Source of the DNA: Chloroflexota bacterium
Lineage (GTDB): Bacteria; Chloroflexota; Anaerolineae; Aggregatilineales; Phototrophicaceae
Length of the DNA: 64,000 nucleotides
NCBI GenBank assembly: GCA_026709625.1
Contig: JAPOSR010000051.1
Span: 105,147-169,146, forward strand
Direction: 5' to 3'
Under the pieces are notes generated by a model that searched no databases, was not told where the DNA came from, and saw nothing but the letters and a program-made list of their open reading frames with translations. A program made the position numbers and the translations under genes. Of the stretch, positions 18,215 through 24,204 are shown piece by piece (positions within the stretch are counted from its first letter, which is position 1; each line of letters opens with the position of its first letter).

Positions 18215-19174
18215 CTAACCTGGCACTTTGGATTTTTCAAACATATTGGACTGCCTGGGTTCATTGCCGATGAGCTTACGGCTTGTAGCAGAAATCGGAT
18301 GCAAGCGTGATTTCGCAAGTTCCACGTAAGCTTCGTTTATCTCAATGCCAATGAACTGTCTGTTCAGTTTTTGACAAGCGACGGCAGTAGAGCCACTGCC
18401 TGCAAACGGATCTAGCACTATCTGTCCTTCAAGAGTGGATAGCCTGATAAGAAATTCCAACACTGCTATCGGTTTCTGTGCTTCATGGAATCGTTCTTCA
18501 TTCTCGTGAAACCAACCTTTGATAAGATTCTTCGGTTGCTTGCCATTTGTCATCACGGCTGATGAATTTACTGCCCCGACTTCGTTTTCGAGAACAACGT
18601 CAGTAATCGTTTTTGGATATGGCTTAAACAGCCAGGCGATTGGTTCCCATATGGGCGCTAGGTTTCCTAGGCGCCAGCCCGACCATTTTTCCGCTTCTGT
18701 TTGCAAACCACGCCGAGACAAGACAACTGACAGGCGTTGGGCACGGTGGTGTGCAATCGGTTTTTCCCATGCAAGAATGTCTTTAAGCAAAAACCCGCTA
18801 TCCTCCAAAGCGACGATTGCCCGATGCAGTGTTCGCCGTGCGCCAAAGACAAATAAACTTCCCCCATCTTTGACCTTTGGATACAGAGCGGATGCCCAAC
18901 GATAGCACCACTCTTGATATTCTCTAGGAATTTGGCGGTCGGACATGCTCCAGCCACGAATTGGTTTGCCACGCCGCTTAAATCCGCTCTTGCCTTCTTG
19001 GGCGGGAGATGTACCCAAAAGCGCAGAGTTGGCATTATTGTGCAGTACATCCCAGTGATCCAAACTAATGCCGTAGGGGATATCCGTGATGCAACAATGA
19101 ACGGAGTCGTTGTCCAAATTGGGAATAAGCGCTATTGCGTCCCCTACAGTGATTTCGTTTATCAATTCAGTCAT
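18215..19174 (-). CDS. Beta-class DNA adenine/cytosine-N4 methyltransferase, partner of HindIII-like endonuclease
   Basis: A 319-residue methyltransferase. The catalytic motif IV reads TDIPYG near residue 30, and the AdoMet motif DPFAGSGST follows near residue 255; this IV-before-I order is the beta class, to which HindIII methylase belongs. Start ATG 19174 was chosen because it overlaps the endonuclease stop by eight bases, a common R-M coupling; a further ATG 14 codons upstream lies inside the endonuclease gene. It should methylate the site cut by the partner, predicted AAGCTT. An AAGCTT site lies inside the gene at 18328. Base composition is visibly more AT-rich than the neighbours. Confidence 0.88.
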   Translation of the reverse strand: MTELINEITVGDAIALIPNLDNDSVHCCITDIPYGISLDHWDVLHNNANSALLGTSPAQEGKSGFKRRGKPIRGWSMSDRQIPREYQEWCYRWASALYPKVKDGGSLFVFGARRTLHRAIVALEDSGFLLKDILAWEKPIAHHRAQRLSVVLSRRGLQTEAEKWSGWRLGNLAPIWEPIAWLFKPYPKTITDVVLENEVGAVNSSAVMTNGKQPKNLIKGWFHENEERFHEAQKPIAVLEFLIRLSTLEGQIVLDPFAGSGSTAVACQKLNRQFIGIEINEAYVELAKSRLHPISATSRKLIGNEPRQSNMFEKSKVPG

Positions 19175-20018
19175 TGAGTGTTTGGCTCGCTCTCTGAATT
19201 GTCTTGCGTATAACATCTATCTTCTGGTCGATTTTCTCCGAGCGAATCAGCCTACGAATGGCTTCTTCTTTGGACAAACTATGATAACTTCGTTTTACAG
19301 ACTCCCAATAGACTATACCTTCCTGCGCTGCTTCACTTGTCGACTGAATTGCCGTTTGTTTGTATTGTCTCAGCATTTGAAAACTCGTTTCCGTTATAGA
19401 AACAATGTTGTCGTCAACTGCTTCCCAATATCGACGAGCGTCTTTGGAAGGCTCAAGATATCCGGCGGTGTTCCAAAGCAATTCGAGGGATTGAATTGGT
19501 GGATGATCGAGCAAATACTTCATATGTACATATGATAGCAAAGTCACATTTCGTTGTTCAGCTTGTACGTAAATCTGGCTGGAGCGGCTTGGAAATTGAT
19601 ACCATGGTGCTACCAGACAAGCGTAAGTGTCGCTACGCCGCCAATCATCCAGCGCAGTGATTTTGAAGTCCTTCTGATTCTTGGCTGTTCTGCTCAAGCG
19701 GAACGCCTTCGCGTCGGCAACTATCGAGTAGTCCTTGGATACTCCGCGAACATCTGCCGAGTCTCCGCGCACACGGATTACTTCCGATGGAATATCCAGT
19801 GAATTGAACCACCGTTTCAAGAGGATATCGCAGTATTTTGCCCACAGTTTCTCATGTGACGAATCGTGGGCGAATTGTTCCGGAATAACGCCACACTGAA
19901 GCATGGACGGACCAATTGCATTGGACGAAAGCAACTCCACTTTCTGTTCCAAATGGTCAAATGCCCCACTTGTTTGGGCGATTTCCTCGATAATGGAAAT
20001 GATAGAATATCGAGTCAT
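19167..20018 (-). CDS. HindIII-family type II restriction endonuclease
   Basis: A 283-residue protein, close to the 300 residues of HindIII. It shares with HindIII, as I recall that sequence, a striking central block VADAKAFRLSRTAKNQKDFK at 100-119, holding the Asp-Ala-Lys catalytic core of the PD-(D/E)XK fold at 102-104. Further matches are an ALxxWR motif just after it, an APWYQFPSRSSQIY segment and a C-terminal KEEAIRRLI helix. The predicted target is AAGCTT. It is followed by its methyltransferase with an eight-base overlap. The gene is AT-rich relative to its surroundings and sits between metabolic genes, so recent transfer is likely. Confidence 0.9.
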   Translation of the reverse strand: MTRYSIISIIEEIAQTSGAFDHLEQKVELLSSNAIGPSMLQCGVIPEQFAHDSSHEKLWAKYCDILLKRWFNSLDIPSEVIRVRGDSADVRGVSKDYSIVADAKAFRLSRTAKNQKDFKITALDDWRRSDTYACLVAPWYQFPSRSSQIYVQAEQRNVTLLSYVHMKYLLDHPPIQSLELLWNTAGYLEPSKDARRYWEAVDDNIVSITETSFQMLRQYKQTAIQSTSEAAQEGIVYWESVKRSYHSLSKEEAIRRLIRSEKIDQKIDVIRKTIQRASQTLND

Positions 20019-20036: not shown

Positions 20037-20867
20037 TTAGCCGGCGCGCATCAATTCGCGCTCGACATGATCTTTAAGCACGAGCGTCTTGCGCCATTCG
20101 TCGTCTGTGCCATCGCAGATGAGCGCGATATGCCCGCTGAAGCCAGCTGCCTTCACCAATGCTAGCGCCCGTGTGAACTCGGCTGCATCCAGCTCGTCGC
20201 CAGTGAAGATACCCTTGCAGTGCAGGGAGGTCGCCCGTGGCAGCAGCGCGCGCATGGTGGCGTATTTGTCGGCGGTCTTGGCGGCATTGCCAAAATCGAC
20301 GCATAGCTGCAGCGAGCGCCCCACGCCGTCCATGATTCGCAGCAAATTGTCGCTTTCCACGCTGGTTGCGCGCCAATTTTCTGTGGTGGTATGCAAGCCC
20401 AGCTCCGCGCCAAAATCAGCCAATTCACGCAGCGCGTCGCAACTGCGTTGGATAGCGGCTGGGCTGGGCGCATCGCTGCCACAATCCAGTCGCACGCCTT
20501 TCGCCCCCAGTTTGACCGCGACTCGCTGCCAGCGCTTGGCTGCTGCGATATCCCGCCGCCAGACCGCATTGTCCGCTGCCGACAAATTGCCGGTGTCGAT
20601 CAACAGGTTGACCAAGGTTACGCCCGCCGCCTCGATCTTGGCGAGCAGTCGGGCGAGGTAGCCATCGTCAATAGCTGGCAGATGAAAATTGCAGATCTCC
20701 AGCAGGTGGATGCCTTCGGCAGCGATGAAAGCCGGCAGTTCCAGCAGGCTTAATTCGGCTGGCTGGCTGGCTGCGCGGTTGACCATCGCGCCGCTTTCGT
20801 CCGGCTCATACCAGGGCGCTCCCAGCGCGCCATGCAGCGTCCAGGAAGAAATCGCCAATTTGATCAT
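20037..20867 (-). CDS. Sugar phosphate isomerase/epimerase-like TIM-barrel protein
   Basis: A 276-residue AP-endonuclease-2/xylose isomerase-like barrel. Features of the family are ISSWTLHG at strand 1, IHLLEICNFHLP, VNLLIDTGNLS, VRLDCGSDAP, TTENWRATS with a metal-binding Glu, LCVDFGNA with an Asp, and ATSLHCKGIF with a His. It may isomerise or epimerise a sugar or sugar acid. Its stop lies only 18 bases before the R-M endonuclease start, so the R-M pair might be read from this gene's promoter. Confidence 0.78.
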   Translation of the reverse strand: MIKLAISSWTLHGALGAPWYEPDESGAMVNRAASQPAELSLLELPAFIAAEGIHLLEICNFHLPAIDDGYLARLLAKIEAAGVTLVNLLIDTGNLSAADNAVWRRDIAAAKRWQRVAVKLGAKGVRLDCGSDAPSPAAIQRSCDALRELADFGAELGLHTTTENWRATSVESDNLLRIMDGVGRSLQLCVDFGNAAKTADKYATMRALLPRATSLHCKGIFTGDELDAAEFTRALALVKAAGFSGHIALICDGTDDEWRKTLVLKDHVERELMRAG

Positions 20868-20931
20868 TTTCCACTACCCTTCAGGCTGATTGCCACCAGG
20901 CGAATGATAATCGGCAATGCGCCAATGTCCA

Positions 20932-21103
20932 AATCGGGGGGTGGTGATTTTGATGGATATGCTTTGCTTTGCCCCTCCCCCAAAAAAATGAGGGAGGGGC
21001 TACCATGCTGCGGAAACGCAGGCAAAACGCCCCTTCCCTCGTTCTGGGGGCAAGGGGCCGGGGGCTTGGTTGCCATATCCACGCATTCACCACTCCCCAA
21101 ATC
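20932..21103 (+). repeat. Dispersed palindromic intergenic element, copy 3
   Basis: The best preserved copy. The left end AAATCGGGGGGTGGTGATTTT pairs with the right end TTCACCACTCCCCAAAT. Inside are CAAAAAAATGAGGGAGGGG, a small hairpin CTGCGGAAACGCAG, and CCCCTTCCCTCGTTCTGGGG. It lies between the divergent isomerase and amino acid binding-protein genes. Confidence 0.85.
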
Positions 21104-21193
21104 GCGCGCTTTTGCCGGTGCCGCTTTTTGCGTGATAGAATAGGTGAAGTCACGGTATCGACCTGGCTTTTCTGAACAACGGGAGGAACGACA

Positions 21194-22678
21194 ATGAGAA
21201 CCACCAAGTATTTGTTGTTGCTGGGGCTTTTGCTGCTGGCGCTGCCCCTTGCATTCGCGGATGGACACTTGCCCGACCTGGATGGTCGCGCGGTGACTGT
21301 CGCTGTTGAAAATGCCTATCCGCCCTTCAACACGTTAAATCCCGATACTGGCGAGCCAGAAGGCTGGGATTATGACACGTTGGGCGAGATTTGCGCGCGT
21401 TTGAACTGCGTGCCGGAATACATTGAGACGAGTTGGGAAGGGCTGATCGTGGCGGTGTCGAATGGCGAGTTCGACATGGCGGCTGATGGCATCACCATCA
21501 CCGAGGAGCGTGCTGAGATAGTGGACTATTCGGATGGCTATATCGATGTCATTCAGCGGCTGATGGTGCGTCTTGAGGAAGATCGGTTTGACAGCGCGGC
21601 GGCCTTCGTTGCTGGCGATTTTGTGGTGGGCGTGCAGGTAGCGACGACAAACTACATTGCGGCTGAGGAGTTGTTGGGCGAGGGCAGCGACCGCATTGTT
21701 GCCTATGGCGAGTTTGGTTTGGCGGTGCAGGCTTTGATTACTGGCGACATCGATGCGGTTGTGATAGACGATGTGGCGGGTCAAGGCTATGTGGGTTTGA
21801 ACGCGGATAGGATCAAATTGCTGTCGGATGATTTGATTACGCAGCAGTTGGGTTTCATCTATCCGCAGGGCAGCGACTTGGTCGAGCCTGTCAATATGGC
21901 GCTGGCTAGCATGCGCGAGGATGGCACGCTGGCTGCTATCAACGCCAAGTGGCTGGGCGACACGGCAGATGCCATGATGCTGCCCGACCTGGATGGTCGC
22001 GCGGTGACTGTCGCTGTTGAAAATGCCTATCCGCCCTTCAACACGTTAAATCCCGATACTGGCGAGCCAGAAGGCTGGGATTATGACACGTTGGGCGAGA
22101 TTTGCGCGCGTTTGAACTGCGTGCCGGAATACATTGAGACGAGTTGGGAAGGGCTGATCGTGGCGGTGTCGAATGGCGAGTTCGACATGGCGGCTGATGG
22201 CATCACCATCACCGAGGAGCGTGCTGAGATAGTGGACTATTCGGATGGCTATATCGATGTCATTCAGCGGCTGATGGTGCGTCTTGAGGAAGATCGGTTT
22301 GACAGCGCGGCGGCCTTCGTTGCTGGCGATTTTGTGGTGGGCGTGCAGGTAGCGACGACAAACTACATTGCGGCTGAGGAGTTGTTGGGCGAGGGCAGCG
22401 ACCGCATTGTTGCCTATGGCGAGTTTGGTTTGGCGGTGCAGGCTTTGATTACTGGCGACATCGATGCGGTTGTGATAGACGATGTGGCGGGTCAAGGCTA
22501 TGTGGGTTTGAACGCGGATAGGATCAAATTGCTGTCGGATGATTTGATTACGCAGCAGTTGGGTTTCATCTATCCGCAGGGCAGCGACTTGGTCGAGCCT
22601 GTCAATATGGCGCTGGCTAGCATGCGCGAGGATGGCACGCTGGCTGCTATCAACGCCAAGTGGCTGGGTGATAACTAG
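21194..22678 (+). CDS. Amino acid ABC transporter binding protein with exactly duplicated domain
   Basis: A 494-residue secreted protein made of one signal peptide (about 1-23) and two identical binding-protein domains (about 27-255 and 264-492). Each is a family 3 polar amino acid/opine solute-binding domain with [37 protein letters not shown] and the [19 protein letters not shown] hinge region. No lipobox Cys is seen. The domains are separated by only eight residues. A GGGAGG site precedes the ATG by seven bases. A permease gene follows at 23188; no ATPase gene is nearby, so that subunit must be elsewhere. Confidence 0.88.
21271..21957 (+). repeat. Exact tandem duplication, unit 1
   Basis: This 687-base stretch recurs at 21982-22668 with a period of 711 bases and no difference that I could find by eye. 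The units encode complete binding-protein domains. The 24-base junction at 21958-21981 is unique. Confidence 0.92.
21982..22668 (+). repeat. Exact tandem duplication, unit 2
   Basis: Second copy of the 687-base unit. Identity stops one codon before the end of the gene: unit 1 continues GGGCGACACGG and unit 2 GGGTGATAACTAG. Confidence 0.92.
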
Positions 22679-22760
22679 CTGACCTGGCGTGGCGATTTCT
22701 GGCTCAAACGCAGTGCTTGCAACACAGCGCTGCGTTTGTCCATCTTTTTTGCTAGCACAG

Positions 22761-23072
22761 TTAACGACATGTCTTTGTCGCAAGCAGTCTTGCGCTCTGG
22801 TAGTTAGGACCTGTGAAGATCGAAAGCCGGAGCATGGTTCTGCTGGCGTTCACACTCATTTTGTACAGATGATCCGGGTTATGTTTCACAATGCGCAGCC
22901 ATTCCCACGAGATTTTGCCGAACAGATTCGACCAGCGCGCTTCAATCCGAGAGCCGTCTGTGGCAAGTTGGCATGAAACATAATAGTGTGCTTCATAGTC
23001 ACCCGCAAAGACGAGCATAGCCAGGTGGCTGACCAATACAATAACAAGTACAACGAGCGCGATTTTTTTCAT
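22761..23072 (-). CDS. Small secreted protein, unknown function
   Basis: A 103-residue protein with a clear signal peptide (MKKIALVVLVIVLVSHLAMLVFAG) and a short mature part containing two cysteines (in YVSCQLA and at KTCR at the end). No family recognised. It is supported by a very strong ribosome binding site, GGAGGTGAGCC directly before the ATG at 23072. It lies on the opposite strand between the binding-protein and permease genes, splitting what would otherwise be an operon. Confidence 0.65.
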   Translation of the reverse strand: MKKIALVVLVIVLVSHLAMLVFAGDYEAHYYVSCQLATDGSRIEARWSNLFGKISWEWLRIVKHNPDHLYKMSVNASRTMLRLSIFTGPNYQSARLLATKTCR

Positions 23073-23187
23073 GGCTCACCTCCGCAGGATATTGATCGCT
23101 AATGCGTTTACACGAATGCTGTATGAAATGCGCAATGTTCTGGAAATGGAATTTTTTCGCGCTGTTTGACAATCTTGGAACGGCAGC

Positions 23188-24204
23188 ATGAACACATCAG
23201 CCCCGCAAGGCGCGAATGAGCCCGACCTGCAAGAAATCATCGCCGAGTCGCGTGGGCGGGCGATGCGCTTTGCTCGGCTGTATACATTTCCGTATTGGAT
23301 TGTGTTTTTGGTGATTTTGGGCATCTTGCTGGCCATCAGCATTTTGACCGACAAAGTCTATTCCGATATTTTTACGCAGCTGATGGATGGCGTCGATATG
23401 ACCTTGTTTGTCAGTGGCGCGAGTTATCTCTTGGCGCTGACCATCGCGATCATCGTCGGCATCATCCGCTCCAACCCGCCCGAAGCGCCCCAGACTCGCC
23501 AGATTCTGCGCAAGGCTCTCCTCCGCTGGCTGCGCATCGCTACCTACAATGTCTGTACTGTTTATGTCAGCGTCATGCGCGGCATTCCCATTTTGGTGGT
23601 GCTGCTGGTCACCGCTTTCATCGTCGTGCCGGCGCTGCGCGATCTGATCAATACCAATGTGGTCGGCGGCATTCGCGATCTGCTGGACGACCCCGACATC
23701 CCCGACTTGATTTGGCGCGGCAGTTCGGCTGGCACAGCGATCGTTGCACTGGCTATCACCTATGGCGCTTATATGTCGGAGACAGTGCGCGCGGGCATTC
23801 AATCTATCCCCAAAGGGCAATTTGAAGCCGCCTATTCGGTGGGCATGACCTATTGGCAGACGATGCGCTCGATCGTGCTGCCGCAGGCATTTCGCAATGT
23901 GCTGCCGCCGCTGGGCAACGACTTTGTGGCGATGATTAAGGATTCATCTTTGTTGGCATTTTTGGGCATCCGCGATATCACGCAGATTGCCAAGACCACC
24001 TCGGGGCGCAGCTTTCGTTATGTCGAGACCTATGCTGTTGTGGCGTATCTGTATTTGACCTTGGTCATCCTGGCGACCACTTTGGTCAACATGTTGGAAG
24101 ACACGGTCAACATCGAGCGCGAAACGCCGCGTCTGGTGAAACGTTTGGGCGGGCTGCTGCCGGGCCGGCGCAAGCGCAAAGCCATCCCCGAGACTTTCGG
24201 CTAG
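23188..24204 (+). CDS. Polar amino acid ABC transporter permease
   Basis: A 338-residue HisM/GlnP-type permease. After a cytoplasmic N-terminus it has about six membrane segments, an MRGIPILVVLL segment typical of the amino acid family, YGAYMSETVRAGIQSIPKGQFEAA, and the EAA loop region AAYSVGMTYWQTMRSIVLPQA. It forms the membrane channel for the uptake system whose binding protein is encoded upstream. A long loop between the third and fourth segments (about 150-180) is larger than usual. The C-terminus is basic. No ATP-binding protein gene follows; the next gene is convergent. Confidence 0.88.
   Translation: MNTSAPQGANEPDLQEIIAESRGRAMRFARLYTFPYWIVFLVILGILLAISILTDKVYSDIFTQLMDGVDMTLFVSGASYLLALTIAIIVGIIRSNPPEAPQTRQILRKALLRWLRIATYNVCTVYVSVMRGIPILVVLLVTAFIVVPALRDLINTNVVGGIRDLLDDPDIPDLIWRGSSAGTAIVALAITYGAYMSETVRAGIQSIPKGQFEAAYSVGMTYWQTMRSIVLPQAFRNVLPPLGNDFVAMIKDSSLLAFLGIRDITQIAKTTSGRSFRYVETYAVVAYLYLTLVILATTLVNMLEDTVNIERETPRLVKRLGGLLPGRRKRKAIPETFG

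Follow-up and report, generated by a model that had tools for sequence, protein, structure and literature searches.

Two identical domains in an ancient tandem amino acid binding protein of Anaerolineae: a probable case of gene conversion within the gene

Main finding

The window analysed here, a stretch of 64,000 nucleotides from a sponge-type Chloroflexota bacterium, contains a gene for a solute-binding protein (SBP) whose two domains are identical in sequence. The explanation that we prefer, with a probability of about 0.8, is that the two-domain SBP is ancient, that its domains are subject to recurrent gene conversion and that, in the lineage of the window, domain 2 was copied over domain 1. 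This reading is carried by the exact repeat itself, the ancestral architecture of the protein, the change of type of domain 1, the flanks that this domain has kept and the conversion tracts present in relatives.

In the mechanism we propose, an ancient secreted two-domain SBP of family 3 (amino acids) would feed an adjacent permease in Anaerolineae, and its domains would have been homogenised repeatedly, in separate lineages, by non-reciprocal copying within the gene (gene conversion, concerted evolution). In the lineage of the window, a domain 2 of a type here called alpha would have been copied across the whole of a domain 1 of another type, beta, sparing the signal peptide, the first codon and the linker. 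A receptor with two specificities would have become one with two equal sites, the capture of one ligand going up and the other ligand losing out, and an ATPase encoded elsewhere would power the importer.

The repeat and the architecture of the protein

The source genome (G000) is an uncultured-type assembly of 3.24 Mb in 80 contigs. In its assembled sequence a direct repeat is exact over 688 bp at an offset of 711 (Table 1). It is the sole long repeat found within positions 20500-23500, its copies are separated by a unique junction of 23 bp (21958-21980), and no further copy of the 688-bp sequence was found in the 3.24-Mb assembly. A previous reading of the same DNA, made from the sequence only, had described base-identical copies lying 711 bp apart, with a repeat of 687 bp and a unique junction of 24 bp; spacing, exactness and uniqueness agree with our results, and both lengths were off by one base. 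It had also recognised two tethered amino-acid-binding domains under one signal peptide, joined by a linker of eight residues, and we likewise find a single open reading frame (ORF) with two matches to the PF00497 profile (SBP_bac_3; E 1.1e-66, 223 bits against a curated cut-off of 26.4), which assign the protein to SBP family 3.

The base differences closest to the repeat are, on the 5' side, the first codon of the domain (TTG in copy 1, CTG in copy 2) and, on the 3' side, CGACACGG versus TGATAACT. Apart from that first codon, itself outside the tract, the two domains show zero synonymous change. Since all four-fold sites agree between the copies (108 of 108), selection on the protein sequence was ruled out as the source of their identity.

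Table 1. Features of the tandem binding protein gene and its neighbouring permease gene (positions in the window)
Feature	Position	Strand	Basis
Tandem amino-acid-binding protein ORF, 494 aa, ATG start	21194..22678	+	ORF; two PF00497 matches; genus orthologues at the same place
Signal peptide, 22 aa	21194..21259	+	Sequence; nucleotide alignment with G007, G003, G027, G030
Binding domain 1, 229 aa, now alpha type, first codon TTG	21269..21955	+	Comparison with relatives
Exact repeat copy 1, putative recipient tract, 688 bp	21270..21957	+	Repeat search
Linker GDTADAMM, 8 aa	21956..21979	+	Alignment; GACACGGCAGATGCCATGATG part orthologous to GATTCGGCAGATGACATGATG of G007
Binding domain 2, 229 aa, alpha type, putative donor	21980..22666	+	Comparison with relatives
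Exact repeat copy 2, putative donor, 688 bp	21981..22668	+	Repeat search
Permease gene, 338 aa, BPD_transp_1, GlnP/EhuD/YecS-like	23188..24204	+	Profile match; genus-conserved neighbour of the binding protein

Replacement of domain 1 by domain 2

Across the loci of the genus, nucleotide identity between domain 1 and domain 2 goes from 0.68 to 1.00. In the nearest relatives (G007, G003, G027 and G030) the two domains are about 70% identical, and in the domain tree domain 1 belongs to the beta clade and domain 2 to the alpha clade. The beta domain 1 of these four genomes is also about 70% identical, at the nucleotide level, to domain 1 of the window. In the window both domains are alpha, nested among the second domains of G027, G007 and G003, the first domains of those genomes forming a separate clade. 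The permease tree places G000 as sister to G007 plus G003 (100/100), followed by G027 and then by G030. Because domain 1 of the window is closer to domain 2 of G007 (0.83 nucleotide identity) than to domain 1 of G007 (0.70), we conclude that it was replaced by domain 2 sequence; this resemblance spans its first 640 bases, the last 47 being uninformative.

The sequences around the copied domain have retained their own orthology. The signal peptide is orthologous to those of the relatives with a beta-type domain 1, TTG is the ancestral codon with which domain 1 of the relatives begins, and part of the linker is orthologous to that of G007 (Table 1). With ancestral flanks on both sides, the copied tract must therefore begin no more than a dozen bases into the homologous stretch and stop at KWLG, the point where homology between the domains ends. 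It fills the whole of this stretch, and no internal edge is seen there. A copied domain between kept flanks is the pattern that gene conversion would leave, and the comparison indicates clearly that domain 2 was copied over a previously beta domain 1 in the lineage of the window, after its split from G007 and G003. Since the copies differ only at the first codon and the permeases of the window and G007 are separated by a dS of 0.42, the event is recent relative to the split from G007. The sequence-only reading had already called the identity very recent and had listed ongoing gene conversion as one option; the kept flanks, together with the tracts in relatives described below, favour that option.

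For domain 2, dS between the window and G007 (L003 versus L009) is 0.97, twice the permease value (L048/L049), and the domain may have been imported from another strain. Such an excess, like the domain type shared by L016 and L019, whose permeases fall in different clades, could be produced if an alpha-alpha gene, homogenised beforehand in a related strain, had been acquired horizontally. However, the linker and the signal peptide match the local clade, domain 2 nests with the local second domains, and an import would merely move the homogenisation into the donor; we consider it improbable and keep conversion within the lineage as the preferred reading. As for L016 (G020) and L019 (G018) themselves, both have Cys-bearing linkers, GMATEPCGVVEEMA and GMTTGPCGVQEDMA, and an exchange of binding domains between their lineages is likely.

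Homogenisation in related loci

The relatives appear to show the same process at other stages, with identical central tracts of 300-630 bp and diverged ends. In G011, positions 73 to 491 of the 687 are the same in both domains, with divergence to either side, and clean tracts cover 85-599 in G018, 28-653 of 678 in L122 and 7-605 in L127, with similar patterns in L129, L116 and L109. Tracts with sharp edges inside the homologous region were seen in L004, L019, L122, L127, L129 and others, that of the window extending over the whole domain. When third-position differences were shuffled, the longest clean run had a p of about 0.0002 in nine loci. Nearly identical pairs of domains also occur (L120, 0.999; L119, 0.997; L156, 0.991). 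A tree of 149 domains pairs domain 1 with domain 2 of the same gene as exclusive sisters at 47 of the 64 two-domain loci, so paralogous domains are closer mutually than to their orthologues, the pattern of concerted evolution. Sister pairs within the genus, where synteny is kept, are evidently the product of homogenisation; more distant loci lacking clean tracts may go back to separate duplications.

A sequence indistinguishable from that left by conversion would also result from two successive unequal crossovers, from two domains to three and back to two, and three-domain forms that could represent the intermediate do exist, in frame in L105 and L132 and split by a TGA in four members of the genus. 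This route, however, demands two events and an intermediate for every tract, and the tracts are many; moreover, no three-domain allele was seen among the mapped loci of the window's clade. We regard it as unlikely, to much the same degree as import, and gene conversion is retained.

The three-domain loci deserve a description of their own. L105 and L132 encode three binding domains without an intervening stop, the first domain of L132 being cut by the end of the contig. In L006 (G016), L012 (G009), L014 (G032) and L015 (G021), which are the genomes of L080, L097, L088 and L087, a third binding domain lies directly past a conserved in-frame TGA (context GAGATG TGA CTG). This domain is open for 232 codons in all four loci and has no signal peptide of its own; its differences fall mostly on third codon positions (e.g. 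12, 15, 41), and its dN/dS is 0.16-0.24. Readthrough of the stop codon, adding a third domain, is a candidate in these four members of the genus.

Reliability of the assembly

We also evaluated whether the alpha-alpha pair could be an artefact, one domain having been assembled twice or two unlike or near-identical domains having been merged, in an assembly of uncultured type and 80 contigs. Contigs end inside the gene in seven of 33 same-genus assemblies (G004, G006, G013, G017, G023, G024 and G025) against 1.55 expected (P 0.0006). In G006 the copies are 97.8% identical, and in G017 two contigs share an overlap of 43 bp inside the domain. We did not accept the seven breaks as proof of collapsed repeats and take them as suggestive only; they agree with near-identical repeats being common in this gene, and therefore the exactness of the identity may be overstated. 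The merging of bubbles by a short-read assembler could turn an identity of about 98-99% into 100%.

That the pair itself was invented is nevertheless very unlikely. Copy 1 meets its domain-1-type flanks at unique joins that share only about a dozen bases, which is below k-mer length; near-identical pairs are found in independent assemblies, some of them on contigs of 0.6-1.5 Mb (L119, L120); and no leftover beta domain was found elsewhere in the G000 assembly. An assembly error, which the sequence-only reading had kept among its options, thus loses most of its appeal. It should be noted that breaks or blurring may occur in this tandem gene when it is assembled from short reads.

Age of the two-domain protein

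Homologues were searched for in 60 relatives. Most genomes of the same genus encode a protein with two full domains, as do one other genus of the family and further families of the order, and mapping of domains on the loci gave two domains, three in some. At least two full domains in a row occur in 64 of 80 loci from named genomes, and the titles of the two-domain loci belong nearly all to Chloroflexota/Anaerolineae. One two-domain protein (L140) is on a record titled Pleurocapsa minor, a cyanobacterium, and is probably explained by a mislabelled or mixed assembly, or by transfer.

Within the genus nearly all members have two (some three) domains between the same neighbours. The conserved gene order is mandelate racemase-like protein (MR_MLE), DAO-type oxidoreductase, SBP, permease, coiled-coil protein, PspA and homoserine dehydrogenase, and the set formed by MR_MLE, DAO, SBP, permease, PspA and homoserine dehydrogenase was found in at least 20 members. 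These loci firmly indicate that the ancestor of the genus already had the two-domain protein at this chromosomal position, and the protein is widespread across Anaerolineae. In the window, a type II restriction-modification pair (N6_N4_Mtase and a HindIII-family endonuclease, E 6.8e-75; 18215-20018, minus strand) is inserted between the DAO gene and the binding-protein gene; its presence at this place varies in the genus (L089, L092, L093 and L137 have it).

A fresh tandem duplication of a single-domain gene in the window's lineage, which exact identity with zero synonymous change and the single-domain homologues found elsewhere in Anaerolineae might suggest, is rejected as wholly improbable, since all the nearest relatives are already two-domain at the same place and the linker, orthologous to theirs as is the signal peptide, would need to have been re-created. 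The sequence-only reading had attributed the two-domain protein to recent duplication, and here it does not hold; the comparison of related loci that it had proposed gave two-domain and some three-domain alleles, and no one-domain allele in the nearest relatives. Taken as a whole, that interpretation is partly supported. More generally, the exactness of a repeat in a raw genome is no sure sign of recent duplication.

Predicted function and transport partners

In GlnBP an Arg and an Asp hold the carboxylate and the amine of the amino acid. The equivalents of these residues (R75 and D157 in GlnBP numbering) are invariant in both domains of all aligned members, and both domains are predicted to bind amino acids. 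Among PDB structures the closest matches were to amino acid binding proteins, namely GlnBP, ArtJ and ancestral Gln/Arg binding proteins, with identities near 30%. Neither the window protein nor the beta domain reached any curated cut-off of NCBIfam. At the positions that we take to be equivalent to pocket residues D10, V14, A67 and H156 of GlnBP (the positions were placed by motif alignment), the residues are D, I, G and mostly M in beta domains versus E, P, D and I in alpha domains, the P being replaced by M in one alpha subclade. The two types presumably differ in ligand preference and, since these four positions differ, two formerly unlike sites were probably made equal by the overwrite. 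The AlphaFold model (pLDDT 88, pTM 0.50) contains two well-formed domains, whose relative orientation is not firm at this pTM, and its top Foldseek match is 6h30 (GlnPQ SBD1-SBD2), aligned with both domains over 468 columns.

The adjacent permease is presumed to be the partner of the binding protein. No ATPase gene was found among the neighbours of the binding-protein gene. A single ATPase of GlnQ grade was found in the assembly (332 bits, the next scoring 180); it is encoded on the same contig about 71 kb upstream, outside the window, at G000:C54:48862-55923, where an SBP_bac_3 match, two permease matches and this ATPase stand together. With no ATPase nearby and the sole GlnQ-grade one at that distance, we infer that it possibly serves the orphan SBP-permease pair as well.

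It is tempting to see the tandem as a two-slot cassette, in which repeated copying within the gene, across Anaerolineae, would toggle between unlike sites with a broad range and equal sites that capture one amino acid efficiently; gene conversion, and not point mutation, would then set the substrate range of the importer; this extension is tentative, and we hold it to be rather doubtful. The genus in any case offers a natural series at one orthologous receptor, with two unlike sites, a mosaic, or two identical sites. The series makes it possible to test what advantage two sites, whether equal or unlike, give to a tandem binding protein, and whether gene conversion within a gene alters the specificity of a transporter.

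Comparison with known systems

The closest known system is GlnPQ of Lactococcus lactis (PDB 6h30), which, like the window protein, has two family-3 substrate-binding domains (SBDs) on a short linker, and both loci have a GlnP-type permease. A likeness to tandem GlnP domains had been pointed out by the sequence-only reading, and the best fold match bears it out, apart from the claim that the tandem arose by recent duplication. In GlnPQ, however, the tandem is fused to the permease, whereas in the window it is separate, the ORF ending at 22678 and the permease starting at 23188. The tandem SBDs of GlnPQ bind independently and have different specificity (PMC8025302); SBD1 and SBD2 differ in specificity and affinity, in contrast to the identical domains of the window. 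In the proteins of G007, G003, G027 and G030 the two domains differ in type.

Two equal sites serving one importer are known from OpuA, which has two identical SBDs per complex that act cooperatively during transport (PMC11065425). There the equal sites come from a homodimer, with one SBD per transmembrane domain (TMD), in the glycine betaine family, whereas in the window they lie on one polypeptide. GlnH, ArtJ, AncQR (4zv1) and ArgBP share the fold and the anchor residues of the window domains at about 30% identity, but each has one domain against two here, and the window protein falls short of the curated NCBIfam cut-off for all of them.

In the literature covered, mostly open-access papers, we found no report of gene conversion in solute-binding proteins. 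In PKS/NRPS genes concerted evolution is already established: through internal recombination, repeated domains of one gene or cluster are more alike than orthologues (PMC4256081, which cites Santoyo and Romero 2005). A cycle has been proposed there in which divergence is countered until domains escape (PMC4256081). The window gene resembles the PKS/NRPS genes in that domains within one gene would be homogenised by internal recombination, and differs from them in being a transport receptor with two domains, for which homogenised, mosaic and escaped (alpha/beta) states are found at one orthologous place.
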